Below the pieces are notes generated by a model that did no database searches, was not told the DNA's origin, and saw only the letters and a program-made list of their open reading frames with translations. Source: Bdellovibrio sp. (lineage in GTDB: Bacteria; Myxococcota; SpSt-1050). Taken from it: a stretch of 29,596 nt of DNA. The stretch spans positions 1 through 29,596 of the forward strand of contig DYEF01000090.1 of NCBI GenBank assembly GCA_020725805.1, given 5' to 3'. Positions 2-29,275 of the stretch are shown here, piece by piece. The position numbers and the translations under genes are program-made. The stretch's first letter is position 1, and every line of letters begins with the position of its first letter.

Positions 2-199
2 GGTATAAGCAGTATGGTCTATTATCCTGTTTTGCTTAGTAGTATGGCAGTATTTAAGGGGCGAATGAGGTGCTTGGAACTTAAAAATGCCGAACAGTTT
101 GCGAAGGAGGTAATAAGCCTGCCTGTAGGACCAACGCAGGAGAGAGAGACAACGCTCAGGATTGCATCCGGGCTCAAGAGGATATTGAGAGAGATATGA
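2..199 (+). CDS. DegT/DnrJ/EryC1-type sugar aminotransferase, 3' end only
   Basis: This is the last 65 codons of a gene that begins before the window. The reading frame is open from base 2. The tail fits the C-terminus of PLP-dependent nucleotide-sugar aminotransferases: a YPVLL segment (family YPxPLH-like), then a block ending in KEVISLPVGP, and a final helix (ETTLRIASGLKRIL) matching the family ending LPxxPxxxxxxxxxIxxxl. The active-site lysine and PLP-binding region lie upstream and are not visible, so the substrate cannot be told. Its stop codon overlaps the next start as ATGA (196-199), so it is probably translationally coupled to the 2-epimerase. Together they probably make an amino sugar for the surface glycan. 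An ATG at 14 lies inside the conserved domain and is not a real start. Confidence 0.75.
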   Translation, partial: GISSMVYYPVLLSSMAVFKGRMRCLELKNAEQFAKEVISLPVGPTQERETTLRIASGLKRILREI

Positions 200-1341
200 A
201 GTATAAGATTATTTCTGTTGTAGGTGCAAGGCCACAGTTTATAAAACTTGCCCCGATATATAAGGAGTTTGAGAAGTATAAGGATATCAGACATATTGTT
301 TTACATACAGGGCAGCACTATGACTTTCTGATGTCGGATGTCTTTTTTAAAAACTTTAATCTGCCCAAACCCGATATTAACTTAAATATCGGTTCCGGTT
401 CTCATCACATACAGACGGGGGAGATGATAAAGAGGATAGGAACCAAACTCGAAAGAATAAAGCCTGATATAGTAGTAATTTATGGTGATACAAATACAAC
501 GCTTGCGGGGGCAATTGCATCAGTCAAACTCAAAATCCCGATTGCACACATTGAAGCCGGACTCCGTTCTTTTATAAAATATATGCCGGAGGAGATTAAC
601 AGGGTTGTGGCAGACAGACTCTCCGATTTGCTCTTTGTCCCGTCAAAAAATGCAATTGTTAATCTTGCTAAAGAAGGGATTTCGAATGTAATAGCGAATT
701 CAGATGGTTTTAAGAGGGGCAATCCTCCGTATGTAATAGAATGTGGTGATCTGATGTATGATATTTTGAAGATTGTCTTAAAGAATGTTAAAGATGACGA
801 AAGGGATATACTTGGGAAGTACAATCTTGAGAGGAGAGGTTTCGCTCTTGCCACGGTTCACCGTGCAGAGAATACGGATAATGAGGAGAATCTCGAGAAT
901 ATTCTGGGTGCCCTTGATGAAATATCAGAGGATCTGAAGGTTATTCTTCCCTTGCATCCGCGGACAAGCGGAATCCTTCGGAAGAGCGGCAGACTGAAAA
1001 AATTCAGGAATATAACCATTATTAATCCCCTCTCCTACAATGAGATGCTGATTCTCGAGAAGAACAGCAGGGCGATATTTACTGATTCGGGCGGTGTTCA
1101 GAAGGAGGCGTTCTGGCTCAAAGTCCCCTGTATTACTATGAGAGATAAGACTGAGTGGGTCGAGACGGTAGAATCCGGCTTTAATATTCTTGCAGGTGCT
1201 GACAGAAAAAAGATTATAAGTGCGTTTAAAAAAACAGAAAAAAGATTTGAGCCGGATTCGGATAAAACCGGTGTGTATGGAAAAGGGGATGCCTCAGTCA
1301 GGATTGCAAAATTCATAAGAGATTTTTTGAGATGGCGATAA
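196..1341 (+). CDS. wecB: UDP-N-acetylglucosamine 2-epimerase (non-hydrolysing)
   Basis: This cytoplasmic enzyme interconverts UDP-GlcNAc and UDP-ManNAc. Its 381 residues match the usual family length of about 370-390. Visible motifs are GARPQFIKLAPI at 10-21, TGQHYD at 38-43, YGDTNTT with D98, HIEAGLRS with E120, PEEINR at 131-136, HRAEN with H222, PLHPRT, and the nucleotide-binding SGGVQKEAFWLKVPC block followed by TEWVETVESG. D98, E120, the PEE glutamate and H222 correspond to the acidic residues and histidine known to be important in WecB. The ATG overlaps the aminotransferase stop, and the 3' end overlaps the permease start by ten bases. The product probably feeds the polysaccharide exported by the next two genes. 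The family is secure. Relatives acting on modified UDP-sugars exist, so the exact sugar is less sure. Confidence 0.93.
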   Translation: MKYKIISVVGARPQFIKLAPIYKEFEKYKDIRHIVLHTGQHYDFLMSDVFFKNFNLPKPDINLNIGSGSHHIQTGEMIKRIGTKLERIKPDIVVIYGDTNTTLAGAIASVKLKIPIAHIEAGLRSFIKYMPEEINRVVADRLSDLLFVPSKNAIVNLAKEGISNVIANSDGFKRGNPPYVIECGDLMYDILKIVLKNVKDDERDILGKYNLERRGFALATVHRAENTDNEENLENILGALDEISEDLKVILPLHPRTSGILRKSGRLKKFRNITIINPLSYNEMLILEKNSRAIFTDSGGVQKEAFWLKVPCITMRDKTEWVETVESGFNILAGADRKKIISAFKKTEKRFEPDSDKTGVYGKGDASVRIAKFIRDFLRWR

Positions 1342-2138
1342 TCAGATTTTTTCTTGAGCCGTTTGAGCAGATTTTTACCCACAGAAGGCTGCTTGTAAAT
1401 ATTTCGTATAATGAAATACGAGGCAGAGTGGCCGGCTCTGCACTCGGTCTTGCGTGGCTGATATTGTATCCGCTTCTCCTGTTGTCTGCCTATGCCTTTG
1501 TTTATATATATGTTTTCAGTATAAGATTCCCGATCTTTACTACTAATGAGTATGTGGCGCTTATTTTCTGCGGGCTTATACCTTTTATCTCTTTTGCAGA
1601 TTCACTCGGAAATGGTATCGGTGCGGTAACCGGTAATGTAAATCTGATTAAAAACGTTATATTTCCGATAGAGCTGGTGCCGGTTAAGGTTGTATTCGTA
1701 AGCCAGATCACTCAGACAGTTGGTATCATTTTGCTGATAATTGCATCGGCCTTTTTTAAGAGGATTTCCTTCTTTTTGCTGATGCTTCCTGTTATATGGA
1801 TACTCCAGATTATTTTTACGATCGGAGTTGTGTGGATTATCTCTTCCCTCAATGTATTTCTTCGGGACCTGCAGCAGGTAATAAATGTCATCATACTTTT
1901 TCTTATGCTGGTCAGTCCCATTGCATATACACCAGAAATGGTACCTGAGGGGATGAGACCACTTTTGAAGATAAATCCGCTCTTCTATATCATTACAGGT
2001 ATTCAGGATTCGGTTATGGTAGGGAGACTGACAGAGCCATATCTTCTTCTTCTGTTTTTTATTATATCTGTCTCGTTCTTTGTTTTCGGGTACCACTTCT
2101 TCATTAGACTAAAAAGGGTATTTGCTGACAATGTCTGA
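1332..2138 (+). CDS. wzm: Polysaccharide ABC exporter, permease subunit (Wzm-like)
   Basis: This 268-residue integral membrane protein of the ABC-2 export family forms the channel for undecaprenyl-linked glycan. An amphipathic N-terminus (FFLEPFEQIFTHRRLLVN) is followed by the family hallmark of small and hydrophobic residues near RGRVAGSALGLAWLILYPLL. About six membrane segments are seen, near residues 35-60, 68-90, 110-140, 142-170, 182-200 and 232-255. The chain ends with a basic tail (IRLKRVFADNV). The length is typical for Wzm. The start overlaps the wecB stop region and the stop overlaps the Wzt start, the normal gene order for this heteromeric transporter. Similar permeases export capsules or teichoic acids, but the Wzt C-terminal domain next door favours an O-antigen-type system. 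Confidence 0.92.
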   Translation: MAIIRFFLEPFEQIFTHRRLLVNISYNEIRGRVAGSALGLAWLILYPLLLLSAYAFVYIYVFSIRFPIFTTNEYVALIFCGLIPFISFADSLGNGIGAVTGNVNLIKNVIFPIELVPVKVVFVSQITQTVGIILLIIASAFFKRISFFLLMLPVIWILQIIFTIGVVWIISSLNVFLRDLQQVINVIILFLMLVSPIAYTPEMVPEGMRPLLKINPLFYIITGIQDSVMVGRLTEPYLLLLFFIISVSFFVFGYHFFIRLKRVFADNV

Positions 2139-3969
2139 TATATCGATAAAGATTACACAGCTCGGTAAGGCCTACAGGTTGTACAATAAACAATCGGACA
2201 AGATACTTGACTCTCTCGGAATAAACAGACTTCTCTTTCTGAAGAAAAACTATTATCAGGAGTTCTGGGCATTAAGAGATATAAATATGATTGTTGAACG
2301 GGGAGAGAGGGTCGGACTTGTCGGCAGAAACGGTGCGGGTAAGAGTACATTGCTCAAAATTATCGCCGGCAATATTACGCCTACAACGGGTAAGGTCGTT
2401 ATTAATGGCAGGGTAGACGCACTTATGGAGCTTGGTACGGGCTTTCACCCCGAGTTTACCGGCAGGGAGAATATCAGGGCATCGCTCGGACTTTACGGGC
2501 TGACATACAGGGAGATCAAGAGACTTGAAGATGAGATAATCGATTTTGCAGAACTCGATGAGTTCATCGATTATCCGATTAAGACCTATTCGGCAGGTAT
2601 GTATACAAGACTTGCCTTTTCGGTCTCGACGATGCTCAGACCCGAGATACTGATTATAGATGAGATACTGAGTGCAGGGGATGCATACTTTGCCGGTAAG
2701 TGTATTGAGCGGATGAAGAGACTGACAGAGGAGAGCGGTGCAACTGTACTCTTTGTCTCCCACGATGTCTCATCTGTTCAGAAACTCTGTGAAAGGGCAA
2801 TATATCTCGAAAAGGGAAAGATAGTTGAGGATGGAGATACTCTTGAGGTGATAAAAAGATATACTGCTGTAATAAGGGAGATGGAGAATAACCGGTTACG
2901 TCTGAAGAGTCTCGGGCTTGTAAAGAAGGATGCACAGGTCATAAATACCGAGTACGGAAAGAATGTTCTGCTCTTTCACCTGATTGAGGAGAACTGGGGA
3001 ACGATAAAGGGTATGTATCCGTTTACGTCGATTGAATTCAGTATCGATGATAAATACAGTGATTGTATCGAGGTAGGCGGTGCGATGGATAATAATACAT
3101 CACACTCTGCATATCTCATTACCTCTCCGAGGTTTACTGACTGGAGTCTGCCTCAGAAAACAGGTGGATATACCACAAGGCTTGTGACCGATTGTGACGG
3201 GCTTTACAGACACGCTCCGTTCATATTCAGATTTCCGGAGCACATAACGGAATTTAATAAAGTTACTTTGAATTTGGGTTATGTAGATAATACGTCCGGC
3301 AGACTTTTTCTGGAAATCTATGATGGTGAAAGATATATCAGATTCGGGGAGATTCTGTTTACGGATTCCGGGAGACTGAAAACAGCAAAGTTTGAAATCA
3401 GTGATATCCTTAAGCAGTTTAAGTCGAAAAACAGTTCCTGTGATAGTACAGTTGATCAGGATAAAACCGCTGAAAGAAAGACTGAAAATCCGAATATCAT
3501 CTCAATAAAGGGTGATATATACGGAGAACTGCCTTCCCTTATCGAGGATATCAGAATTTATGATGCCGAAATGATTGAACGATATGTCTTTGTAACCAGA
3601 GAGAAGATGACGATCAGAATCAGTTACAATGCTTCGAAAAGGATAGAGAATCCGGTCTTCGTCGTTGCTGTATATGGTGCTGACGGATCAGTTGTGAATC
3701 AGGCAATAAGTTCGAAGGATAATATCAGGATAGAATCGATAGAAGGAAGCGGTTATGTCGATGTCATTTATGACCCGCTTATTATCGGTGAAGGTGATTA
3801 CTATATTTCGGCAGGTATCTTTAAGTCAGTTGACCTCTTCAGCAGAGGAGATAATCCCGCCTACTCAGTTCACGATAGGAGGTATTTACTCAAAGTTAGA
3901 CAGCCACATAATCTTAAAGTTCCACTTGGGATTGTAAATCAGGATATAAAGTGGGAGGTAAAGAAGTGA
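2131..3969 (+). CDS. wzt: Polysaccharide ABC exporter, ATPase subunit with extended C-terminal region (Wzt-like)
   Basis: This protein powers glycan export with Wzm. The ATPase domain occupies about residues 1-245: Walker A GRNGAGKST at 65-73, signature YSAGMYTR at 153-160, Walker B EILIIDE at 172-178, and switch histidine H211 in VSHD. Residues about 455-605 resemble the Wzt C-terminal carbohydrate-binding domain, with a DIRIYDAE entry and an IIGEGDYYISAGIF strand. In E. coli O9a Wzt this domain recognises the modified non-reducing end. A further beta-rich segment of about 155 residues (265-420) and a polar linker sit between them, making 612 residues where about 400-450 is usual. The start is ATG 2131. 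A TTG nine bases upstream is in frame, but the AAAAAGGG at 2111-2118 is better spaced for the ATG. The gene overlaps wzm by eight bases. Confidence 0.92.
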   Translation: MSDISIKITQLGKAYRLYNKQSDKILDSLGINRLLFLKKNYYQEFWALRDINMIVERGERVGLVGRNGAGKSTLLKIIAGNITPTTGKVVINGRVDALMELGTGFHPEFTGRENIRASLGLYGLTYREIKRLEDEIIDFAELDEFIDYPIKTYSAGMYTRLAFSVSTMLRPEILIIDEILSAGDAYFAGKCIERMKRLTEESGATVLFVSHDVSSVQKLCERAIYLEKGKIVEDGDTLEVIKRYTAVIREMENNRLRLKSLGLVKKDAQVINTEYGKNVLLFHLIEENWGTIKGMYPFTSIEFSIDDKYSDCIEVGGAMDNNTSHSAYLITSPRFTDWSLPQKTGGYTTRLVTDCDGLYRHAPFIFRFPEHITEFNKVTLNLGYVDNTSGRLFLEIYDGERYIRFGEILFTDSGRLKTAKFEISDILKQFKSKNSSCDSTVDQDKTAERKTENPNIISIKGDIYGELPSLIEDIRIYDAEMIERYVFVTREKMTIRISYNASKRIENPVFVVAVYGADGSVVNQAISSKDNIRIESIEGSGYVDVIYDPLIIGEGDYYISAGIFKSVDLFSRGDNPAYSVHDRRYLLKVRQPHNLKVPLGIVNQDIKWEVKK

Positions 3970-6900
3970 AATTCGAGAAGGAGTATTACGAGCAGTCCTC
4001 TCTCTGGGAACAGGGATTGCTTGATTACCAGATTGAGGTCATTGAAGAAATAAAGAGAATAATCCCTGAAGACGTAAAGACAGTTCTCGATGCGGGATGC
4101 GGAAATGGCGTTGTGTCGAACGGACTTGCAGGGAAATATGATATTACCGCTCTTGATATAAGCGAGACTGCCCTTAGATATGTAAAGGCATCTAAAAAGT
4201 TTATCGGTTCAATTGATAAGCTTCCTTTTGAAAGTAATTCGTTTGATCTTGTTATGGTAAATGATGTTCTGGAGCATCTGGACGATGAGACATTCGGTAA
4301 GGCACTGACAGAGATTGAGAGAGTTTCAAAAAAGTATATAATTGTTACCTCTCCGTTTCTTGAGAATCTGAAATTCAATTTTACGAAGTGTAAAAACTGT
4401 AAGAGAGAGTATCATATCAATCTTCACAAGAGAAGTTTTGCTTTTAATCAGATAAGGAATATATTTAAGGATTTTTCTCTGAAAAGTCTTACCTTCTGCG
4501 GGAGATTGTATCAGAGTACACATTCGGCTTTTACCGAAGAGAGACACAGGATTGAGCAGTTTGTAGGAGATCCGAAGGCAGTATGCCCGTTTTGTGGGTC
4601 GAAAGGGGGTTTTGAAACAGAGTCCGATAAATCTGTCCAAAGCAGAATTCTGGATGCAGAGGAATTTATTTTTTTGCAGAAGAACAGGGATTTATGGGAG
4701 AGAAGACCCGACAGACAGGAGTATGTAAGTCTGTATGAGAAGGGATATAAATCATCCGAGGATTCTGAAGTAAGTCCGGATCTCTCTTATGCAGGGATAT
4801 CCAAAACGAATGAAATTTTATTTTCAAGAGCACTAAGGGTTGAAGAGCTGAAACCGTTTAATCCTTATCCGCAGTATCAGGTTTTGTGCAGTAATTATGA
4901 ATATGAGCATAATTTTCTGAGATTTAAGAGCGAAACTATATCGGATATACTGAAATTTTCATTTCCTCATTTGATAAAGGATAGTGTCCTACTGAATATT
5001 GAACTGATTGCAAACAAAGAATCTGTAATTACGGTCAGTATCTATGATTCTCTTTTTGACAGATTTAGGTCATTAAAGGAATTAAATATTCTATCCGGTG
5101 AATCAATGATAAATCTGGAGGTTATTGATTCCTCTCTTCCGTCCAGATACGGGACACTCTTTCAGATATCCTTAAGAGGTGATATAAGTCTTAGAAAGAT
5201 ACGATTAAACGGAGTTGGTTCTGTATATGAGGTTGAAATATTAAAGACAGACGGGTATATAAAGAGAAGGTACAAAGGGATTGACCTCTCTTTGAAGACC
5301 GATCAGGAAGATATAAAACCGCTCTGGTTTTTTGATGATTTAGAGAATCTTGCTGATGGTATTCTTGTTAAGGATTTTTCTGAGAAGGAGTTTTATAAAT
5401 TAAATCAGAAAACTCTACATTTTATTATACCTTGTATTGAAAATTTGAGAGAAGAGCTTACAGAACTCAGTAAGAGTTTGTCGGAGCTTGAAAACCGGAG
5501 AGAAAAGTGTGAAGAGGCCTATCAGCAGTCGCTAAGGGAGATAAAGGCCTTGAATGATATGCTTTTGATAAAGGAGTCAGAGAGAAGAGATGCAGCGGCT
5601 CTGGCCGATAAATATTTTAAAGACCTTAAGAGCCTTGAAGAACGTTATACCGAACTTAATGACAAACTCAATGCAACTGAAGAATCGAGACAGAAGGCAG
5701 AAGAACTATATCAGGTTGCTCTCAAAGATATAAATGTGTTGAAGGGCCTTGTAGAGAGAAAGGAAGAAGAGAGAGTTAGTGTAGAGAAGATGTATCAGGA
5801 GTCGTTGGCTGAAAACCAAAGATTAATCAAACTTGTTGAGCAAAAAGAGATTCAGAGGGTAAAGGCTGAGGAGGTAGCAGGTAAGTATCTTGAAGATTTA
5901 AAGGTAATGGATAGAAGATATAGTGAATTGAATGATAAATTGAATCAGACAGAAGAATTCAGGCAGAAAGCGGAGAAGGCATATCAGGAGGCACTTGCAG
6001 AAATAAAGAGTCTTCATAATCTGCTCGAGCAGAAAGAAGAGCAGAGGAAAAAGGCAGAAGAGGTGGCCGGTAAGTATTTGGAAGATTTAAGGGTTCTTAA
6101 TACCAGATATCAGGAGATAAACAACAGATTAAATGAGACAGAGAAATTGAGGGCAAAAACTGAAAATATATATCAGGAATTACTGAAAGAATACAATATT
6201 TTCAAGGTAAATTATGATGAAAGCCTGAAAAGTGCCGATGAATTAAAAAGCAGAATAAATGTACTTGAAGATAAGTTAGGAAATTTAAATAGTGAATTTG
6301 AGAGAGTAAATAGCGAAAACAATTTGTTAATCAAGGAGAGGGAAGAATACAAAAGTTCTTATGAGATACTAAAAGGGAGAAAGGTCAGAAGGCTACTTGT
6401 CCTCTCTCATATGTTTCCCCACAGGGACCAGATGGTATTTGGTCCCTTCGTTCTGGATCAGGTAAAGGCACTTCTAAGGTATACTGATCTGGATGTCAGG
6501 GTGATTTCCTGCAGACCGTTCTGGATGAATACATATAATCCATTGAAACTCAAGGAGGCAAATCGTATTTACTGGGAAGAGATGAAGAAGGTAAGGTGGG
6601 AGGAGTGGGATGGTGTGAAGGTGATGTATCCTCCTTACAGAGTCGGGGGACCATTCAGATTTATCACGCACTGGCATACCTATTCACAGGCTGTAATGAG
6701 TGTAATAAACGATGTGTTAAGAGATTTCAGGTTTGATATGGTGCACGCACATACGGCATATATTGACGGAAATGCGGCAAAGCTTATTTATGAGAGATTC
6801 AGAATTCCATACATTATTACCGAACATATGGCGCCTTACTCCGAGTATGTAAGAAATCCGATAGTGCTCAGTAAATCAATTGAATCCAGCAGAAACGCTT

Positions 6901-7592
6901 TAAGGATTCTGTGCGTATCCCCGAAATTCAGAGATGAGATAGCATCCTTTATGCCTTCTGATGTAAGACAGAAACTTCTTGCTTACGGGAATGGTGTTTA
7001 TACAGATATGTTCTATCCTGTCTCAGAGAAAAATGGTCTCAGGACTCCTATAAAACTTTCATTTGTCGGTTCGCTTGATGAAAGAAAGAATCCGCTTTTG
7101 ATGCTTAAAGTATTTAAGAGGCTCAGGAGTGCGGGACTAAATGTGGTTCTCAATATTCTTGGCAAAGGTCCTTATCTGGATAAGATGAAGCATTTTGTAG
7201 CAGATAATAATCTGGCTGATTATGTCTTCTTCTCTCATTCGCTGCCATCGGAGGAATATGCAAAATTTTTCAGGGAGAAAACTGATATTCTTGTGCATCC
7301 GAGCAAATCAGAAGGGTTTGGAGTAGTTATAATTGAGGCACTATCCTGTGGTAAACCTGTGGTTACAACGAGGTGTGGTGGTCCGGAATATATCATTGAC
7401 GATGAGAGACTCGGGAGACTTGTTGATGTAGATGACGACGATGAACTATATGAAGCGATTGTAGATGTAATAGAAAATTATGAGTCTTTCGATCCTGTAT
7501 GGATGCACAACAATATTAAGGAAAGATTCGGATTCGAAAACTTTGCAAAGAGGCTCAGGGAGATGTACGAGGAGGCCTTAAAGGATCTATGA
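3966..7592 (+). CDS. Methyltransferase / coiled-coil / GT4 glycosyltransferase fusion
   Basis: A 1208-residue multidomain protein. Residues 1 to about 240 are a class I SAM-dependent methyltransferase: motif I VLDAGCGNG at 40-48, ALDIS as motif II, and LVMVNDVLEHL as the post-I motif. Two CxxC pairs (CKNC and CPFC), with a YHINLHKRSF segment after the first, suggest a zinc site. Residues about 245-490 look beta-rich and match nothing I know. Residues about 493-800 are a long charged coiled coil built of in-register repeats. Residues 804-1208 form a GT-B glycosyltransferase of GT4 type, with GSLDERKNPLLML, NILGKGPY and the donor-site block SEGFGVVIIEALSCGKPVV. The start is GTG 3966, overlapping the wzt stop as GTGA and preceded by GGAGG at 3953-3957. 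An in-frame GTG at 3951 overlaps that site. By analogy with WbdD I infer chain capping plus length control. Confidence 0.85.
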   Translation: MKFEKEYYEQSSLWEQGLLDYQIEVIEEIKRIIPEDVKTVLDAGCGNGVVSNGLAGKYDITALDISETALRYVKASKKFIGSIDKLPFESNSFDLVMVNDVLEHLDDETFGKALTEIERVSKKYIIVTSPFLENLKFNFTKCKNCKREYHINLHKRSFAFNQIRNIFKDFSLKSLTFCGRLYQSTHSAFTEERHRIEQFVGDPKAVCPFCGSKGGFETESDKSVQSRILDAEEFIFLQKNRDLWERRPDRQEYVSLYEKGYKSSEDSEVSPDLSYAGISKTNEILFSRALRVEELKPFNPYPQYQVLCSNYEYEHNFLRFKSETISDILKFSFPHLIKDSVLLNIELIANKESVITVSIYDSLFDRFRSLKELNILSGESMINLEVIDSSLPSRYGTLFQISLRGDISLRKIRLNGVGSVYEVEILKTDGYIKRRYKGIDLSLKTDQEDIKPLWFFDDLENLADGILVKDFSEKEFYKLNQKTLHFIIPCIENLREELTELSKSLSELENRREKCEEAYQQSLREIKALNDMLLIKESERRDAAALADKYFKDLKSLEERYTELNDKLNATEESRQKAEELYQVALKDINVLKGLVERKEEERVSVEKMYQESLAENQRLIKLVEQKEIQRVKAEEVAGKYLEDLKVMDRRYSELNDKLNQTEEFRQKAEKAYQEALAEIKSLHNLLEQKEEQRKKAEEVAGKYLEDLRVLNTRYQEINNRLNETEKLRAKTENIYQELLKEYNIFKVNYDESLKSADELKSRINVLEDKLGNLNSEFERVNSENNLLIKEREEYKSSYEILKGRKVRRLLVLSHMFPHRDQMVFGPFVLDQVKALLRYTDLDVRVISCRPFWMNTYNPLKLKEANRIYWEEMKKVRWEEWDGVKVMYPPYRVGGPFRFITHWHTYSQAVMSVINDVLRDFRFDMVHAHTAYIDGNAAKLIYERFRIPYIITEHMAPYSEYVRNPIVLSKSIESSRNALRILCVSPKFRDEIASFMPSDVRQKLLAYGNGVYTDMFYPVSEKNGLRTPIKLSFVGSLDERKNPLLMLKVFKRLRSAGLNVVLNILGKGPYLDKMKHFVADNNLADYVFFSHSLPSEEYAKFFREKTDILVHPSKSEGFGVVIIEALSCGKPVVTTRCGGPEYIIDDERLGRLVDVDDDDELYEAIVDVIENYESFDPVWMHNNIKERFGFENFAKRLREMYEEALKDL
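5493..6143 (+). repeat. In-register coiled-coil repeats of 63, 91 and 63 residues
   Basis: Inside the fusion gene, residues 510-572, 573-663 and 664-726 are copies of one unit. Its landmarks are RQKAExxYQ near the start, AEEVAGKYLEDL in the middle and RYxELNDKLNxTE at the end. The middle copy is 28 residues longer because the block running from KAEELYQ to KEEER is doubled. 63, 91 and 28 are all multiples of seven, so the heptad register is kept. A fourth, decayed copy begins at 6144 (LRAKTENIYQELLKE). The DNA copies are also visibly alike, for example around GGTAAGTAT in copies two and three, which points to fairly recent duplication. Confidence 0.85.
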
Positions 7593-9175
7593 AGATACTG
7601 ATGATTGCTCCTGATATCTTTATGATAGACAGAAGGATTCTGCTTGAGGCAGAGAGTCTGATTAAAAAAGGGCATAGTGTTACTCTCCTTTCTGGTTTCG
7701 AATGCAGGAAGGAAGAGCATTATACCGAGAAAGGAATAAGTATTCATCGCTATGTCTATGACTGGGATGATTACAGATTAAAGAGAATAAGAAAATTTCT
7801 GCCGCCGAAGGATGTTATTCACAGAGTCGTAAACAGAGGATTTATTCTCTTTGCAAACAGATTTCTGACACTTTCCCCTTTTGAGCGGTTTATATTCGAA
7901 AAGGCAAATCAGTTTGAATTTGATATAATTCACTGCCATGATTTACCTGTCCTGAAGCCTGCAATAGTTCTCTCTGCATTAAGAGATGTCCCGCTTATAT
8001 ATGATGCTCACGAGTTATACCCATCGCAGAAGGTGTTGCCACTAAGGCTCAGACTCAGAAGCTACATCAATGAACGGCTTTATATAAAATATGCTGACTA
8101 CGTTATAACTGTAAATGATTTTATAGCTGAGCTGATGAGAAGAAGATACGGGGTTGAAAATATTGATGTTATAATGAACTGCACCAAAGTTGAAGACGGA
8201 TTTGAACCATCTCATTTGAGAAATATTCTGAAAGAGAGGCTAAAATTAAAAGAAAGCGACAAGATTGTTCTCTTTCAGGGCTGGATTTCGCCCGAGCGGA
8301 ATTTAGATACCATAGTCAGGGCTTTTAGGTATGTTGGAGATAATATCAAACTCGTTCTCATTGGATATGGTCCTTATGAAGATAAACTAAGAGAAATAGT
8401 GAAGAAAGAAAGGCTAAAGAAGAGGGTATTTTTCTTCGGGGCTGTTCCGTCTGAAGAGATTCTGAGATATTCTGCCGGTGCGGATATCGGTATTATCCCT
8501 TATGAGCCAATCGATGAAAATCACTTATATTGTTCACCAAATAAGTTTTTTGAATTTATATTGTGTGGTATCCCTGTAATCTCAAACGATTTACCGTTTT
8601 TCAGGTCAATGAATGAGAGATACGGTGTTGGTGTAACAGCAGATATGAAGAGACCTCTCGAACTTGCAAAATCGCTACGGTCTGTACTTGAAGATAATGA
8701 GAAACTTAATAATTTGAGGGAAAATGCAAAAAAGGCCGCTCTTGAGTTAAACTGGGGCGTTGAGGAGGGGAAGTTATATGAGATTTACGACAAAATCTTT
8801 GAGATTCATAGGAGGAAGAGGGAGATGAAAAAGAAGAGATTCTTTTATCTGCCACTTCTTGCAATGGTGGGGACATATCTCGCCTGCAAGGGCGGACCAG
8901 AGATGGAACTTAGCCCGAATCAGAATTCATACAAGGTCGGAGATGAAATAGAGATAATGATAAGATATCTTCCTCCTTCTCAGCCGGAGGTCGAGTTCTG
9001 GGTAAAGAGAAATCCCGAGCCTTGGGTAAAGATTAGGGAATATAGCAAGAATCCTGTGATAAAATACAGATTTAATAAGCCCGGTGATTATGCCTTCGAG
9101 GCACACATAAAGGACGAAAAATCCCCTCAGGGATTCAGGGCACTCTGGAAGGGATTATATACAGTTCATCAATAA
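7589..9175 (+). CDS. GT4-type glycosyltransferase with a lipoprotein-like C-terminal extension
   Basis: Residues 1 to about 405 are a GT-B fold glycosyltransferase. An N-terminal KILMIAPDIFMIDRRI strand and a FDIIHCHDLP segment precede the C-terminal donor-binding half, with FQGWISPERNLDTIV, LIGYGPYEDKL, VFFFGAVPSEEIL and SPNKFFEFILCGIPVIS. The domain ends normally in a helix (LNWGVEEGKLYEIYDKIF). The frame then continues without a stop through a basic stretch into MKKKRFFYLPLLAMVG at 413 and a 95-residue, probably Ig-like beta domain ending in GLYTVHQ. Either the enzyme has a C-terminal membrane anchor with an external domain, or a second product starts at 8825. The start overlaps the previous stop as ATGA (7589-7592). 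It is the last gene of the polysaccharide operon and probably adds sugars to the same glycan. The acceptor is unknown. Confidence 0.82.
   Translation: MKILMIAPDIFMIDRRILLEAESLIKKGHSVTLLSGFECRKEEHYTEKGISIHRYVYDWDDYRLKRIRKFLPPKDVIHRVVNRGFILFANRFLTLSPFERFIFEKANQFEFDIIHCHDLPVLKPAIVLSALRDVPLIYDAHELYPSQKVLPLRLRLRSYINERLYIKYADYVITVNDFIAELMRRRYGVENIDVIMNCTKVEDGFEPSHLRNILKERLKLKESDKIVLFQGWISPERNLDTIVRAFRYVGDNIKLVLIGYGPYEDKLREIVKKERLKKRVFFFGAVPSEEILRYSAGADIGIIPYEPIDENHLYCSPNKFFEFILCGIPVISNDLPFFRSMNERYGVGVTADMKRPLELAKSLRSVLEDNEKLNNLRENAKKAALELNWGVEEGKLYEIYDKIFEIHRRKREMKKKRFFYLPLLAMVGTYLACKGGPEMELSPNQNSYKVGDEIEIMIRYLPPSQPEVEFWVKRNPEPWVKIREYSKNPVIKYRFNKPGDYAFEAHIKDEKSPQGFRALWKGLYTVHQ
8825..9175 (+). CDS. 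Possible internally started lipoprotein, in frame with the glycosyltransferase
   Basis: An ATG at 8825 lies in the frame of the preceding glycosyltransferase and follows a purine-rich run with two Shine-Dalgarno-like sites (AGGAGGAAGAGGGAG, 8810-8824). Read from here the product is 116 residues. It has a basic n-region (MKKKR), a hydrophobic core, and a cysteine at position 21 in YLAC, a non-standard lipobox because leucine is expected at -3. The remainder, with KVGDEIEIMIRY, EVEFWVKRNPEPW and NKPGDYAFEAHI, looks like one small beta-sandwich domain. I cannot match it to a named family. No stop codon separates it from the glycosyltransferase, so independent translation is an inference. Confidence 0.4.
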   Translation: MKKKRFFYLPLLAMVGTYLACKGGPEMELSPNQNSYKVGDEIEIMIRYLPPSQPEVEFWVKRNPEPWVKIREYSKNPVIKYRFNKPGDYAFEAHIKDEKSPQGFRALWKGLYTVHQ

Positions 9176-11441: not shown

Positions 11442-13514
11442 TTAAAAATCTTTTCTGATAATCAGAAATCTTGCTGTTGAAACGGTTCCTTCTTCACCCT
11501 GTTTGAATCCCAGTTTCATCGAGCTGATATATGTGACCTTATCTTTGATAATCTGACTTATGAAGAATCCGTAACCACCTTCACCGAACCTGTTCTTAAG
11601 ACCGTCATCGGTCGGTGAGAGCAGTGTTACAATGTTACCGGGTGACCAGGGCGGGTTACCATCCTGTCTCGAGGCAAAGAGTAATCTGTGGTTTGTTGCG
11701 TCCTGGAAAGCAATATGGGCAAAATTGTCTTTATCGAATGCGAGCGAACAGTCAGGACCTGCAAACTCCTTGAGTCCGGGGGTAACTCCTGTATAAACCA
11801 CCTCGATTTTCGGTGTCTCATTTGCAAACCGCTCAATGTATTTCAACTGATTCAGAGACGCATCGTAATATGCAATTCCCATTCTGCCGTCAGGTGCGAA
11901 ATCGAGTGAGGCAAATCTTCCCACATCTCCTGTATCATTTCCGTCGCTGTCTTCACCGTCCAGTATTTCGATACTGACTGTATCTCCTTCTATTGTGGCA
12001 AGTTTCAGATTCCCTTTGAACTTTTCTGCGTCAACCGGAGCCCTGTCGTAATATGCTATGTAGACCTTACCATCTGTATGAATCCTGACTGAAGGAAAGA
12101 GTCCTACGCCCTCCTCGAGAACGTATGCTACAGTCCCTGCGTCCTTTCTGCAAACCGGTGCCTGTGCATCATCGAGGACGCATTTTTCATCACTGCTGCA
12201 ACCCGCACCCTCCTTGCAGGCTTTCTGGTCGGATGAAAGGGTTCTGCACAATGTCTGGTTGCTCTCGATAATACAGGCGTCTGTCGAACTGCACAGCCCC
12301 CTGCAACTGACCTTTGCTGTATCAATATCAATAATCTTCCAGTCCTCGGCTTTTGCCGGAACCTGATTTGATGCCGGAACTGCCAGTTTGAGTTTTGAAG
12401 TGAGCCTGTTCTCTCCCGGTGCTCCGTTCTTCTGGAAGTATGCTATATACGGGAGACCGGTTGAGGAGACTGCTATGGATGTGTACAAACCTACATTTTC
12501 GCCGTTCCCGTCAACGGTGTGGGTTGTCCAGACGGCTCCGTCAAAGTATGCAAACTTAAGAGATGTAGTTGAAACATCATAATAACTTATCATAATCCTG
12601 CCCGAACTATCGAGTCCGATGGATGTATACTTTCCGATATCCGGTCCGGAGTCTTTTATGCCTTTTCTGATTCCCTCGGGATTCCCTGCAAGCTGGCCGT
12701 TTTTGGGTACTCCGTCAATAAACTGAACATTCTTCGGGTCATATTCACCGAGCGGCCCGTTTCCGTTGTTGTCGAAGAGAAATTTTACGAGCACAAGGTC
12801 TCCGTATGTCTTGTTGTAGGCACTGGCAATGAGTTCATTATTCCCGGTCATTGTAAGTCTTGAATAGTATCCGAGGTCTCCTACCGGCAGGTCAGGGAGG
12901 ACCTTGCATTCACATTTTATCTCCTTGCAGGAGCTGAATGTCGAATCTTCGGGCGGGTCGGAAAACATCAGAATCTCTCCGGCCTTACAGGTTATCTTGC
13001 AGGCCGCAACGTCAGGGGCCGGAATACATTTGTCGGTCTCGGCAAGGCATACCTCCTTCTCACCGCATTTCCCGTTGCAGGGGAGTCTCTTCATACAGAA
13101 CGTGTTCATACAGAACATGCCTTCGGGACATTCATTGTTCTTGCCGCATTTCTTGTAATGGCAGTACTGTCCGTTTGTATCGCATTCCATTCCGTCAATA
13201 ACGCAATCTCCTCCCGAGCACTCCAGATATGAATCGACACAGGCCCTTCTTGAGCATATCTGTCCGGGATTGCAGTCTGAATCTGTCTGACACCTGATTG
13301 GTTTACAGATTCCGCACATAAGCTCCTGACCGCGCGGACAGGGCGCTGTATTTGTATCTGTTATGGCATCGCCTGATATATCTTCGAAACCGCTGTCGAT
13401 ATTGATTTTGGCATCGGGTTTATATCCTGTATCACCGGTTGCAGAATCTCCGCAATCGCAGGCGGATAATATTATAGCAAACAATATAGCCGTCAGAATA
13501 ATATGTCTGAACAT
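11442..13514 (-). CDS. Cys-rich beta-propeller lipoprotein
   Basis: Read from ATG 13514 (GGAGGT eight bases upstream) the product is 690 residues. It has a canonical lipobox LSAC with the acylated cysteine at 19, and D at +2. A low-complexity linker rich in Asp, Gly and Thr follows. Residues about 57-200 hold many closely spaced cysteines in units such as CQTDSDCNPGQIC and CGKNNECPEGMFC, which resemble the small disulfide repeats common in myxobacterial surface proteins. From about residue 210 the chain is built of propeller-type repeats with GxYxSI, YISYYD-like and LKFAYFDGAVW-like strands. A second Cys-rich block at about 402-458 interrupts the propeller. An in-frame upstream start at 13598 would bury the signal peptide and is rejected. 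The ligand is unknown. The protein is probably anchored to a membrane with the propeller outside. Confidence 0.72.
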   Translation of the reverse strand: MFRHIILTAILFAIILSACDCGDSATGDTGYKPDAKINIDSGFEDISGDAITDTNTAPCPRGQELMCGICKPIRCQTDSDCNPGQICSRRACVDSYLECSGGDCVIDGMECDTNGQYCHYKKCGKNNECPEGMFCMNTFCMKRLPCNGKCGEKEVCLAETDKCIPAPDVAACKITCKAGEILMFSDPPEDSTFSSCKEIKCECKVLPDLPVGDLGYYSRLTMTGNNELIASAYNKTYGDLVLVKFLFDNNGNGPLGEYDPKNVQFIDGVPKNGQLAGNPEGIRKGIKDSGPDIGKYTSIGLDSSGRIMISYYDVSTTSLKFAYFDGAVWTTHTVDGNGENVGLYTSIAVSSTGLPYIAYFQKNGAPGENRLTSKLKLAVPASNQVPAKAEDWKIIDIDTAKVSCRGLCSSTDACIIESNQTLCRTLSSDQKACKEGAGCSSDEKCVLDDAQAPVCRKDAGTVAYVLEEGVGLFPSVRIHTDGKVYIAYYDRAPVDAEKFKGNLKLATIEGDTVSIEILDGEDSDGNDTGDVGRFASLDFAPDGRMGIAYYDASLNQLKYIERFANETPKIEVVYTGVTPGLKEFAGPDCSLAFDKDNFAHIAFQDATNHRLLFASRQDGNPPWSPGNIVTLLSPTDDGLKNRFGEGGYGFFISQIIKDKVTYISSMKLGFKQGEEGTVSTARFLIIRKDF

Positions 13515-13536
13515 ACTATGACCTCCAGTAGAATCA

Positions 13537-13565
13537 ATTATACTTGATTGCTCGTCAAAATTCAA
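13537..13565 (-). promoter_or_regulatory. Sigma70-type promoter for the Cys-rich lipoprotein gene
   Basis: On the - strand TTGAAT (13565-13560) and a perfect TATAAT (13542-13537) are spaced by 17 bases, 22 bases upstream of the chosen ATG. This supports the start at 13514, since an mRNA starting just below the -10 would not include the longer reading frame's start. Confidence 0.7.
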
Positions 13566-13572
13566 ACAACTT

Positions 13573-13600
13573 TTTTGGTTATGGTCAAAATTTACCAAAA
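13573..13600. repeat. Inverted repeat in the divergent control region
   Basis: TTTTGGT (13573-13579) and ACCAAAA (13594-13600) are 7-base inverted arms 14 bases apart, between the divergent promoters of the lipoprotein and aldehyde dehydrogenase genes. The left arm extends to TTTTGGTTAT, the reverse complement of ATAACCAAAA at 9282-9291. It could be a regulator site. Confidence 0.3.
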
Positions 13601-15686: not shown

Positions 15687-17891
15687 TTACCTGATATAAT
15701 TCTTCCAGTCCGACATACCGGGTCTTGATTTTGCCGTAATAAGCGAATTCTCAAAACGCAGATTCATATCCCCGAGATTTATCTCTGAACCTTTCCTGAT
15801 GAAAACCGGTATTTTGTAATACGGTGTTTCGACTCTGATTCTGACAGGACCTTTGTATTCCTTACCGGTAAAGACATCCATCCATTCACCTTCCGGAATA
15901 AAAACCTGCTTTTCCTGTGTCCCCTTCTTCCATACAGGGGCTACAAGAATATCGTCTCCGTAAAAATACTGTTCAAATTCGTCGAGAAAATCCTTGTTGT
16001 CCGGATACAGGGCAATCATTGGCCTGATTACAGGAGTTCCTTTTTTGTGTGCCTTCTCTGCCTGTCTGTACGAATATTCTATCAGGTCGGTATGCAGATT
16101 TGTGTACATAATATAGACCGCCAGCAATTCTTCATCGTAGAACGGGTCGTACGGATAACCGTTCTCATCCACAACACCACTCTGGCCGTCTGGCACCCTT
16201 GACCAGAAGGCCGCATTCAGGGTAGGACCTACTTCCATTATTGGTGTGAATGCCGAAAACTGGATCCATCTCATACATACCTCGCGGTCAGATTGTCTGC
16301 GGTACTGTGTATCATACCCGCAGGTATCAGAACCCCATATCGGGAAATTCATAAGTGCTGCTCTCTGTGCCGCAATTATGGCCGACCTGAGCCCGTATTC
16401 GGTCGGGGCGGTATCACCACCCCAGACAACCGCATTCTTCGCTGTGCCGACCCATCCGGCGCGCGGCATCACTATGAAATCCTTGACACCGGCTTTATCA
16501 AATGCCTCTCTTACAGATTTTGCATACAGGTAAGGAAAGTAATTATGATACTCCCTGTAACTCTTGCCGTTATAGTATTTGCCCGAGAAGAGGATTCCGT
16601 CCGGCACTTTTTCTTCTCCTCTGTCCAGTTTGAATCCTATAACGCCGTCCTTGATCCTTTTTATCAGGTAACTCTGCCACCAGTCTGCTGCCCCGGGGTT
16701 CGTCAGGTCGATAAGTTTTGCCTCTGGAGGAGGTGCAGGTGTAGGGTTTGTTACGAAGTATCCTTTTGATTCTCCTTCCTTTACCATTTTATCTCCCGCT
16801 GCCCATGGAGAAATCCAGAGCATAAATTTTATTCCATATGACTCGAGCCATTTAATCATTGCAACAGGGTTTGGCAGCCGCTTCTCGTCATATTCCAGAT
16901 TATCATAACCAAAGTCTCCCTCTCCCCACGGTCTGTCAATCCAGTATGCAGAGCAGGGAATATTGAGTTTCTGCATCATTACTATATCTTCTACAACCAT
17001 TGAATTGTAAGGTCCGTCGTAGGGGGTTTTGTCGAAGAAATATGGCAGGTTGTAGTGGTCGTCCCTCCATCTCAGATGTCCGAAAACAAATTTCGGGGGC
17101 ATAAGTGAGGTTCCGACGTATCCGGAATATTTTTCGGTGATCCTCAGCAGATTTTCACCGGTGAAGACAGTAAGAGGTAAGGTTGCTCCTTCATATATAA
17201 TAGCCGTTCTGTCCTCTCTTTCCGTTCCGAAGAGATATCTTCCCGGCCAGTTACTCTCGACGAAGATTCCGTATTTTGCAGTGCTTACAAAAAACGGGGA
17301 ATAGATTGATAGTGTGGGATAGGTATATAGAAGTACCTCCTGTCCTCTCAGGTTCAGTCCCTCTTTCATACCTTCCTCCCAGCTTTTGTCCTGATCTCCC
17401 TGAACCACTCTCTCCATCAGTCCGTAATATCCTTCATCGGATGTTGTGTTCAGAATGACTCCCGGTTGTTCAGAGGACAATTTCTTCTCAAGACCGAAAA
17501 GAATTTTAAGAGCACTTCCTTCGTTTTTAATGGTCAGTCTCCCCTTCCGCCCGTTTGCTGAGGATATTTCTATTACAGTACTCCCGTTTTCTGTCCCGAT
17601 AGAGTCGATTTTATTCAGAAATTCCCTTTCTGTGCGGTCTTTCTGAACGAAGAATCCTCCCCCGGCCCCGTAGTCTATCGAAAAGAGAAGTTTTCTGTTA
17701 TCTTTATTGAAAATTTCGATTTTCGGAACCTCTTTTTCAACAACGAATTCGAGCTCCTGTGTAATTACACCGGCATCCGGAGAAATCTCCGTATCCTCTG
17801 TATCTGCTGATAGATTGGAAAGGTCCCTGCCGGAACAGCTGTATAGAATAATATTCAGTGTTAACGCAGAAAAAATTATAATCCTTTTCAT
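15687..17891 (-). CDS. GH31 family alpha-glycosidase lipoprotein
   Basis: This is a membrane-anchored retaining alpha-glycosidase of family GH31 (alpha-glucosidase or alpha-xylosidase type). The 734 residues begin MKRIIIFSALTLNIILYSC, lipobox LYSC with the cysteine at 19, then an acidic linker. The (beta/alpha)8 core shows FGHLRWRDDHYN, SAYWIDRPWGEGDFGYD, KFMLWISPW, the nucleophile block FKLDRGE with D423, and the acid/base block WGGDTAP with D493. C-terminal beta strands include DDILVAPVW and FIPEGEWMDVFTG, which are typical of the family. ATG 17891 is chosen for GGAGG nine bases upstream and the perfect signal peptide; an in-frame start at 17957 would overlap the promoter. The +2 residue is Ser, compatible with outer-membrane sorting if rules resemble E. 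coli. Exact substrate is unresolved. Confidence 0.88.
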   Translation of the reverse strand: MKRIIIFSALTLNIILYSCSGRDLSNLSADTEDTEISPDAGVITQELEFVVEKEVPKIEIFNKDNRKLLFSIDYGAGGGFFVQKDRTEREFLNKIDSIGTENGSTVIEISSANGRKGRLTIKNEGSALKILFGLEKKLSSEQPGVILNTTSDEGYYGLMERVVQGDQDKSWEEGMKEGLNLRGQEVLLYTYPTLSIYSPFFVSTAKYGIFVESNWPGRYLFGTEREDRTAIIYEGATLPLTVFTGENLLRITEKYSGYVGTSLMPPKFVFGHLRWRDDHYNLPYFFDKTPYDGPYNSMVVEDIVMMQKLNIPCSAYWIDRPWGEGDFGYDNLEYDEKRLPNPVAMIKWLESYGIKFMLWISPWAAGDKMVKEGESKGYFVTNPTPAPPPEAKLIDLTNPGAADWWQSYLIKRIKDGVIGFKLDRGEEKVPDGILFSGKYYNGKSYREYHNYFPYLYAKSVREAFDKAGVKDFIVMPRAGWVGTAKNAVVWGGDTAPTEYGLRSAIIAAQRAALMNFPIWGSDTCGYDTQYRRQSDREVCMRWIQFSAFTPIMEVGPTLNAAFWSRVPDGQSGVVDENGYPYDPFYDEELLAVYIMYTNLHTDLIEYSYRQAEKAHKKGTPVIRPMIALYPDNKDFLDEFEQYFYGDDILVAPVWKKGTQEKQVFIPEGEWMDVFTGKEYKGPVRIRVETPYYKIPVFIRKGSEINLGDMNLRFENSLITAKSRPGMSDWKNYIR

Positions 17892-17924
17892 CAGAATAAA
17901 CCTCCGTAAAACAGGATGAGGCAA

Positions 17925-17953
17925 ATGATACTTGGTTTCACATTGTCTGTCAA
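17925..17953 (-). promoter_or_regulatory. Sigma70-type promoter for the GH31 gene
   Basis: On the - strand a perfect TTGACA (17953-17948) and TATCAT (17930-17925) are separated by 17 bases, 33 bases upstream of the ATG at 17891. It lies back to back with the promoter for the gene at 18038. Confidence 0.7.
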
Positions 17954-17975
17954 TCAACTTTGGTTCTGAAAAGAG

Positions 17976-25555: not shown

Positions 25556-28500
25556 CTATTCGTTTTCGAACACGGCATTCTTGCCCATGGTACCGGAAGG
25601 CTGCGGTCTGTCTGCAAATATGTCTCTGATCACTACTTTGTGGTCCCCGTTTTTATCTTCGAGCGGGAACCCGCGGTTGGTAAGCGGATATTCCTCCGTG
25701 CCTGACCACTTTCCCTGGTCCTTCGGGAGCCCTATTGTGTATTTATACTGAACATTTGTTAGCGGAGGGAAGGCAAAAGTCCCTGTCCAGATCTGGTCAT
25801 TTGCTACTTCATCCGAGCCCTGTCCGTCATCCCTTAATGCACAACCGACAGAATTCGGAATCCAGTCGCAGAGTTTCTCGGTCGCTCCTGTAATGTAAAC
25901 AATGCCGTTACCCTTGGGTGGTGGAGGAGTTGTGATATTGGTATACTGGTCGATAGGAATGACCTTGCCGCTTACATCGACCTTGAAGGTCACATAAATG
26001 AGCGTTGTGGTGTCTTCGAAGATGATTTTTGAACCGAAGTTGGGGGCAGAATCGATATCCGAATCTCCCCTTGCCACTACGTACAGGAGTTCGAGCGGGT
26101 CATCTTTTGTTATTTCGAGTGCATTAAAAGGAATTTTTATCTCGATGAGCTTCCCCTTGGATACAGGTCCGCCTGCGCTGATCCCGTTCAGCTGTGTAGC
26201 TGTCCATTTGCCGCTGCCGTCCGCATTTGAAAGGGTCAGACTGAGGCTGACCCCCGAAAAGTCAAGCACAAGTTCCTTTGCCGCACCTCCGGAGACGAAC
26301 TGAAGCGGTGTCCCGTTTCTTGTGCTCTTGTTGGAAGGGTTTGCAATATATTCTCCCTTGTCCTTATCCGTTATATGCTTGTGGGAGAAATAGAGGAATA
26401 TTTTCATATTGGAGTTGAGTTTTGCAGAGAGGTCGAAGTTAGAAAGAATTGCCGTATAGAAATTGTTGTCGTCATATCCGTAATAAATCATTGAAATTAT
26501 ATCGTCGGGAGAAGGTGTCGAACCCGAGGAGTCGATATCGTAGAAGAGTCCGCCTTCATTTGCCCATTCGCTCTCGTCCGGGTCGAAAATCCCATTGATA
26601 GTGGGGGGAGTTGTGAAAGGACCTTTGAGGCTCTTTGCCTTTGGCTGGACAATCGGGCCGAATTCCGGGGTTGTAATCTGTGCGCCCGCCAGTCTGGCAA
26701 ATTCATAGACGCCGTTCAGATGAGCCCTGAAAGACCGGTCGAACGGGGTATCGTCGTTTGCAGGTGATGTCATATCGTCGCCGTACCACCAGAACCAGTC
26801 AGAACCCTCCGCGCTGTAGATGGATTCCCATGCCTTCCATATGTAGTAATCTCTTTGGTTTGTTACTGGGTCGGGCATAGGTGCAGACGGGTTCGGACGC
26901 GGAAGACCGGTCTTCTCTAAGTCGCTTCTTGCCCTTCTCAGATATGTCCACGCCTGATTCTCCTCGGATTCCCCTATCCATATGGCGTAGTTTGAACCTA
27001 TCCAGCTGCCCGGCCAGAGGTCATCTATCTTCTTCATTGAGGATACCGGATGTGCAGGGATGTTTCTGCTTTCGTTACCTTCAATATATTCGGTGACGGT
27101 AGTTGTTATGATTTCACCCATTTTATAGGATTCGTTGAGTTTTGAATAGAGAAGATTTTTGAAACCGTTCCCCTGAAAGTCCTTGATATAGTTCTCCCAC
27201 GGATTCTCCCCGTCGGATATGACTACAACGAGTCTGTCAATCTGTCCGAAATTAGGGGCGTTCCTGAGAACGTCCTGTATGAATTCATTCGCTGCCTGTT
27301 CGGGGGTTAGTCCCTGAAATGCGAAACCTATCTTGTCGGATAGTGCGTTGTCCCTGAAGATGATGGCCATATCCTTATTCCCTCCGCCGTTTACCCTGTA
27401 GGGCTGGAACTGATTGAGTCCGGAGGGTTGGGAACGTTCGACGATTCCCTGGTCCGTTGCCACCCATTTGACCGAGTTGGATGCAAATACCTGAATTGCC
27501 TCATTTGAGACAGAGCCCTCGCCGGGCCACATCCCCACGGGTGTATAATTGAAGAGACCTGAAAAATAGGATAAGGCCTTCAGCACGTGTGCGTGTGCGT
27601 CCAGAGGATAGCTGAAGTTCGGCTGCGGGAGTACATCGGACGGCTGGCACTTCTTTGCTGTATCGGTATTTATCAGGAGCGGAAGGATGGGGTGATAGAA
27701 TGGCGTGGTGGTGAGTTCTATCTGTCCCTTCTTGGTCTCGAAGTTATAGGCGAGTTCCTTATGAACGGTAATTACATTTTTCATAATTTTGAGTTGTTCG
27801 GCCACAAGACGGTTACAGAGGTCTTCAGTGATCTTTACACCCTTTCTGAGATAGAACTTCCCGTCCGGTTTCTCCTCTACGACATCGGAGAGATCGACAG
27901 ATGAGCCGTCCGGCAGACTGACCCTGCCCCTTAGGAAATTCACATCGAACCACGCTATCTCGAAAAAGCCCTTGAGATTCAGCCAGTCTTCCTGTGTATA
28001 GGTTGCGCGGTTTTTGTCTCTTAATGCCTTATATTCCGGAAATCTCTCCATAACTGCATCTGATGTTGAGACACAGGACCATGCACCTCTGTAAAAATAT
28101 TCAATCTGTTCCTGTGTGGCCGTTGACGGGTCCGGTGTGTCTTTGAGCAGGATATCGATAAACGGGTCGGTCTTCCCCTCGTACTTTGCAAGGAATTCGG
28201 CCTCGTTGATACGGTTTGTGGCAGGATTGTAATACGGGGTGAGCCGTTTGATATAGTATTCGTCGAGCTGAAAGAGCATCACTGAGGTAAGATTTATGTT
28301 CAGGTGTACATCCGGATAATTTCTTAATACCTCGGCCATTCTGTAATAGCTCATTACGGCGTGTTTTCTTACCCATGGGCCGAGGAGCTGGTCCTTTACC
28401 GGGTCAAGGTAGGTCGGCTGATGCTGGTGCCATAGTATCGTGAGATATACCGACCGTTTGATCTGGGCTTTATTGCGGCTCTTGTCGATAGAATTGCCTG

Positions 28501-28972: not shown

Positions 28973-29275
28973 AACGACCTCCTCGGCAGAATATACTACA
29001 ACATTTTTTTCCTTATTAAAAGCCAAATCATTTTCTGTTATTAAAGTTGAACGAGGATATATTGAAAGTCTTTGGTTAGAGATAAAGAGCTGAAGAGCTG
29101 AAGTTTTGATAGAGAACCTTTTTAGGATTTTTTGAAAATTTTGGGGTATTTCCAGCGAAAAAATCCTATTGACATCAAAAAAAAAAAAAGAATGGTATAT
29201 TTTAATGTGAAGATGGAGGGGAAGAATGTTTTTGAAAAACAGGAATGAATATGTTTTAATAAAGAGTAGGGAAAG
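28973..29275. other. 303-base divergent intergenic region
   Basis: The gap between the GH57 gene (- strand) and the partial gene at the window end holds the GH57 ribosome-binding site (GAGGAGG), a possible + strand promoter with an A tract (29169-29201) and a 17-codon leader ORF at 29226. Upstream of GH57 on the - strand I found TATATT- and TAGTAT-like -10 elements but no convincing -35 partner. The middle (about 29040-29160) is AT-rich and holds nothing I can name. Confidence 0.6.
29169..29201 (+). promoter_or_regulatory. Possible promoter with a 13-A tract in its spacer
   Basis: A perfect TTGACA (29169-29174) is followed by a tract of 13 adenines (29177-29189) and TATATT (29196-29201). The spacer is 21 bases, too long for good activity; a poorer -10 (TGGTAT, 29193-29198) would give 18. 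Changing the length of the A tract would tune or switch such a promoter. Confidence 0.4.

Follow-up and report, generated by a model that had tools for sequence, protein, structure and literature searches.

The window, as we call the whole 29,596-nucleotide stretch of DNA that was analyzed, begins inside an operon with the order aminotransferase (end), UDP-sugar 2-epimerase, wzm, wzt, a large fusion gene, a second GT4 glycosyltransferase gene and a gene for a transglutaminase-like protein. Upstream, the operon runs on beyond the contig end. At 2..199 (+) is the C-terminal end of a DegT-type aminotransferase, which in frame 2 matches the C terminus of the DegT protein of a sister species and which shares an ATGA overlap with the next gene. 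A non-hydrolysing UDP-sugar 2-epimerase of the WecB/WbpI-like type (196..1341, +; TIGR00236, E=3e-94) is followed by Wzm, an ABC-2 permease of the Wzm/RfbD-like type (1332..2138, +; PF01061, E=1.7e-9). Wzt (2122..3969, +) is a 615-aa protein with an ATPase (PF00005, E=3e-20) and a Wzt_C domain (PF14524, E=2.4e-12) at Wzt residues 468-592, which correspond to ~3523-3897 of the window. Between the ATPase and Wzt_C lies an extra region (~255-467, ~210 residues) that is well conserved in the sister species and has no Pfam match.

The fusion gene (3966..7592, +) encodes 1208 residues in an uninterrupted frame; the ORF translation showed no stop anywhere between these positions. Its GTG start at 3966 shares four bases (GTGA) with the wzt stop and is preceded by a GGGAGG Shine-Dalgarno-like site. 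Since the start arrangement in the sister species is identical, with the same GTGA overlap and a ribosome-binding-like site, translation of the fusion gene is probably coupled to that of wzt. A previous sequence-only reading of this DNA had placed the fusion directly after a Wzt with a Wzt_C-like domain, and both the four-base overlap and the Wzt_C match bear this out.

The second GT4 gene (7589..9175, +; PF00534, E=3.6e-24) has a C-terminal Y_Y_Y beta domain (PF07495, E=4.4e-5) and is conserved in the sister species. The reading frame of this ORF stays open through a lipoprotein-like signal, MKKKRFFYLPLLAMVGTYLAC, and on into the Y_Y_Y domain. An AGGAGG ribosome-binding-like site before an internal ATG at 8825 suggests that this ATG is a second start, in which case the ORF would contain an embedded lipoprotein gene; it may also be a true fusion. 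The sister second GT4 has the identical in-frame layout, and a purine-rich site is found there too.

The operon in a sister species and the genome context

The sister species is the MAG Deltaproteobacteria bacterium SKW273, which was assembled separately and belongs to a sample series that we take to be of hot-spring origin. Its operon has identical genes in identical order, and further upstream it contains an oxidoreductase-acyltransferase gene and the aminotransferase gene in full. Judged by their families, these upstream genes and the epimerase suggest a pathway resembling that to UDP-2,3-diacetamido uronic acids. The fusion protein is 58% identical to its sister counterpart, which is split between two contigs, with the last 78 residues on the second. 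When relatives were sought by a genome-wide pattern search, only the sister contig and one methyltransferase fragment came up.

The source genome also encodes an initiating phosphoglycosyltransferase and Wzy/ligase-type proteins. The oxidoreductase that starts the operon in the sister species is represented by its first 46 residues at the end of contig C22 (25000-37882; G000, L063), so C22 probably joins the window across a gap of ~2.4 kb. On C22 there is a cluster of the Wzx/Wzy type (flippase, asparagine synthase, polymerase and several GTs), and the ABC-type and Wzx/Wzy-type clusters seem to be neighbors; the sister species has a different gene at the position corresponding to the C22 cluster. 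On the other side of the operon, a 718-aa ORF at 11442-13598 (-) has no convincing Pfam or NCBIfam match, and GH31 and GH57 (with CBM20) glycoside hydrolases encoded at 15687-17957 (-) and 25556-29026 (-) form a theme of alpha-glucan degradation downstream of the glycan operon.

Domain architecture of the fusion protein

The fusion protein begins with a class I SAM methyltransferase domain (residues 1-206; 3966..4583, +) that contains motif I, VLDAGCGNG, and matches Methyltransf_11 (PF08241, E=3.7e-16, residues ~41-123). It ends with a GT4 glycosyltransferase domain of the GT-B type (residues 804-1208; 6375..7589, +) that matches Glycos_transf_1 (PF00534, E=1.3e-32, residues ~1026-1173); the query that gave both sets of Pfam residue numbers started 5 residues upstream. 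The retaining GT-B motif E-x7-E could be read off the GT4 sequence as EGFGVVIIE. The GT4 domain is the best-conserved part of the fusion, with 80% identity to the sister protein, while the methyltransferase domain is 63% identical and the coil between them 43%.

The methyltransferase is a generic class I enzyme. When its profile was compared with PDB sequences, the closest solved structures were unrelated methyltransferases, and the WbdD chains of known structure gave no match at E<=0.1 in this comparison, which was of sequences only. One CxxC motif is found at C142/C145, and a second (C207/C210) lies just past the domain. In the alignment, C142, C145, C207 and C210 are invariant in both species, and the four cysteines could form a zinc site where the methyltransferase domain ends. 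Between the methyltransferase and the coil, no kinase family match was found even at E<=5, and the ~80 residues from the methyltransferase to the following beta domain are too few for a 223-residue kinase such as that of Klebsiella pneumoniae O7 ORF6.

The next region, of ~170 residues (286-455; 4821..5330, +), has no Pfam match. AlphaFold2, given two sequences, modeled it as an all-beta sandwich with a mean pLDDT of 58 (best blocks 65-82) that resembles carbohydrate-binding modules (CBMs). Among its closest solved folds were CBM36, CBM6, CBM35, CBM29 and CBM4, and the CBM matches reached Z 8.6-9.8, the best at 2.5 A over 104 residues, for a model with a pLDDT of only 58. Since domains of ephrin receptors and Cry proteins, which share this jelly-roll type, scored nearly equal to the CBMs, we use "CBM-like", with low-to-moderate confidence, as a statement on fold and not on function. 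For residues 1-517, AlphaFold2 with two sequences only gave a mean pLDDT of 32, and the N-terminal half was not modeled as a whole. When 195 genomes of the phylum were sampled, the beta domain, and with it the full architecture, was found in only two, the source genome and the sister species. Although the beta domain of the fusion resembles the extra region of Wzt in looking like a beta-sandwich segment, homology between them was unsupported (BLASTP E=0.096; hhalign probability 0.2%).

The coiled coil (residues ~474-803; 5385..6374, +) follows a single continuous heptad register. The hydrophobic period is 3.50 over the whole stretch, and Pro and Gly are nearly absent. When ~474 to ~803 was scanned in 21 overlapping 42-residue windows, one heptad phase came out best every time, and the same was true in 20/20 windows of the sister protein. 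Self-similarity of the coil peaked at 63 residues, a repeat of nine heptads, and eight of the ten top offsets were multiples of 7 (in 300 shuffles, the mean number of such multiples among the top ten was 1.4 and the maximum 5). The coil length differs between the two species by 28 and 14 (11+3) residues, which are 4 and 2 heptads. Since these changes are in whole heptads, the register is kept in both species, as is expected if a rod must stay straight while its length varies. If fully extended, the ~330-residue coil would measure ~49 nm at 0.1485 nm per residue. An obvious membrane helix was looked for in the fusion protein and none was found.

The sequence-only reading had described a methyltransferase, a coiled coil and a GT4 in one polypeptide, and the single open ORF with Pfam matches at both ends confirmed this. 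The middle region does read as a coiled coil, since in each of the two species the heptad register runs through ~330 residues without a break. Its limits for the GT4 (804-1208) held, while the methyltransferase, claimed as 1-240, is placed here at 1-206 and the coil is ~330 residues long instead of ~300. The three domains that it named were found; the beta domain and the conserved CxxC pair had been overlooked.

A proposed model of glycan synthesis and its alternatives

We propose that the fusion protein probably unites polymerase, ruler and terminator in a single chain and makes a glycan that Wzm/Wzt exports. The C-terminal GT4, near the membrane, would add sugars to the undecaprenol-linked chain, perhaps with the neighboring second GT4; since the fusion has a single GT4, a hetero-repeat polymer would need that second GT. 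The ~330-residue coil would oligomerize as a dimer or trimer and hold the N-terminal methyltransferase up to ~49 nm off. Only a chain that spans the rod would get to the methyltransferase, where its non-reducing end would be methylated and growth would stop. The CBM-like domain beside the methyltransferase may hold or position the chain, and the C-terminal domain of Wzt would read the capped end and license export. As there is no kinase-sized domain, the predicted cap is a plain methyl group in ether linkage, like that of E. coli O8 and K. pneumoniae O5, and not a methylphosphate. The domains and their order, the heptad register, the gene order and the conservation were observed directly; from them we infer the polymerase role, the cap chemistry, the length control, the oligomer state and the function of the CBM-like domain. 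Methyl capping and length control by the fusion, which the sequence-only reading had put forward, are plausible by analogy with the characterized systems.

The ruler reading draws on the methyltransferase (1-206) and the GT4 (804-1208) being parted by the coil (474-803) in an unbroken register, on the linked Wzm and Wzt_C-bearing Wzt upstream, and on the operon being kept in the sister species. It is also favored by an MTase-coil-GT2-GT4 fusion that occurs separately, behind wzm-wzt, in a second family of the phylum, by the assayed precedents of K. pneumoniae O7 ORF6, WbdD and WbbB, and by the CBM-like fold between methyltransferase and coil, as reported for O7 ORF6. Counting against it are the generic class of the methyltransferase, whose unrelated nearest structures do not indicate the acceptor, the lack of an obvious membrane helix in the fusion, the presence of just one GT4 in the chain, the unmodeled N-terminal half (pLDDT 32) together with the moderate confidence of the CBM-like model, and the finding of the full architecture in only 2 of the 195 sampled genomes. 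More tentatively, and with somewhat more doubt than belief, we suggest that the protein might be a self-contained minimal machine that combines one GT4 polymerase, a ~49 nm ruler varying by whole heptads, a chain-holding CBM-like domain and a kinase-free methyl cap.

Other explanations of the architecture were weighed against this model. The genome assembly is a draft broken into 115 contigs, and the fusion could on that account be a sequencing or assembly chimera of two genes. However, the fused protein, its frame and the operon recur in the separately assembled sister species, and the frame is uninterrupted over the gene. The read-level join of two genes that the sequence-only reading had itself raised is thereby excluded, and the sister species refutes an assembly chimera, the probability of which we regard as negligible. 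It was also considered that the coil merely oligomerizes or co-localizes the enzymes, with the methyltransferase methylating along the chain during synthesis and the length being set elsewhere. Coiled coils commonly serve just to oligomerize proteins rather than to measure, and a generic methyltransferase whose nearest structures do not indicate its acceptor would fit such a role. Nevertheless, a layout that keeps the methyltransferase at one end of an unbroken ~49 nm register and the GT at the other would be costly for simple decoration, and the Wzt here has Wzt_C, which reads a terminal cap in characterized systems (PMC11231755); we consider this explanation improbable.

Slightly less improbable, though still unlikely in our estimate, is that the GT4 of the fusion acts as an adapter (primer) transferase and that the GT4 encoded at 7589-9175 is the main polymerase, recruited in the manner of WbdD and WbdA, with the ruler and the cap unchanged. 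The two GT4 genes adjoin, and the coiled-coil protein WbdD has no GT (PMC11231755). On the other hand, GT modules C-terminal to the coil have the placement of the polymerase in O7 and O12 (PMC11231755), and no part of the fusion is better conserved than the GT4 domain, with its 80% identity.

If the polymerase-ruler-terminator reading is true, the coiled-coil ruler strategy of Klebsiella and E. coli would extend, in a very compact form, to a little-studied lineage. The rods of the two sister species, with a net length difference of 14 residues (two heptads, ~2 nm), would then yield slightly different modal glycan lengths. By 2024 there was one report of a CBM-like domain in a terminator (O7 ORF6), and a second case would help reveal its purpose.

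Comparison with known systems

ORF6 of K. pneumoniae O7 is one chain with an N-terminal methyltransferase, a kinase, a CBM, a coiled coil and two C-terminal GT2 modules, and it was assayed in vitro (PMC11231755, J Biol Chem 2024). Alphaproteobacteria, gammaproteobacteria and cyanobacteria have orthologues of it, of which only a part are fused to GTs (PMC11231755). The sequence-only reading knew of no described enzyme with this exact order, a claim that fails in view of ORF6. Like ORF6, the window protein has an N-terminal methyltransferase, a coil and a C-terminal GT in one chain encoded with wzm and wzt, and, going by a model with a pLDDT of 58, it may also have a CBM-like domain before the coil. 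By the published description of ORF6, the two are set apart in that the window protein lacks the 223-residue kinase, the O7 cap being methylphosphate, and has a single GT4 where ORF6 has two GT2 modules.

In the characterized Klebsiella systems, the coil has the terminator at one end and the polymerase at the other (PMC11231755). O12 WbbB has polymerase, coil and terminator in a single chain (PMC11231755). The window protein is likewise a self-contained chain with a putative N-terminal terminator, a coil and a putative C-terminal polymerase, whereas the terminator of WbbB is a beta-Kdo transferase and its two polymerase GTs are from other families. WbdD (E. coli O9a/O8; K. pneumoniae O3/O5) also has an N-terminal methyltransferase as terminator and a coiled-coil ruler, and it feeds a Wzm/Wzt transporter with a CBM; the cap in O8/O5 is methyl only, and the O9a WbdD has a kinase. 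Unlike WbdD, which has no GT and recruits the separate polymerase WbdA, the window chain includes the GT4. The catalytic domains of WbdD are ~20 nm from the membrane (PMC5082667), and the window coil, at ~49 nm if extended, is about twice this reported reach.

Fusions of the MTase-coil-GT2-GT4 type were found immediately behind wzm-wzt in a different family of this phylum (G037 L055:4879-8103) and on plasmids of Pseudodesulfovibrio (P. profundus), Gluconobacter and Allorhizobium, where they are annotated just as glycosyltransferase. They share with the window protein an N-terminal methyltransferase, a coiled-coil-like stretch and a C-terminal GT4 in one chain, and differ in their mostly shorter or weaker coils, an additional GT2 and no identified CBM-like domain. 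The same domain order near Wzm/Wzt, which had been suggested as a check, was found in full in the sister species and with an extra GT2 in G037. At L055:4115-8103, the fusion is preceded by a short Wzt of 251 aa, which is too small to include a C-terminal domain; in that system, recognition of the chain end must work differently or not take place. At L086:4983-8612, on the P. profundus plasmid, near-perfect tandem repeats of LEGELAERDKVLVAEQAR lie between the methyltransferase and the GT2 and could possibly be a ruler that varies rapidly in length.

An already catalogued relative with the identical layout may exist. The type of machine is already described in Klebsiella and is not a new kind; what is distinctive in the window protein is the combination of no kinase, a single GT4, a long unbroken coil and a putative jelly-roll CBM-like domain.
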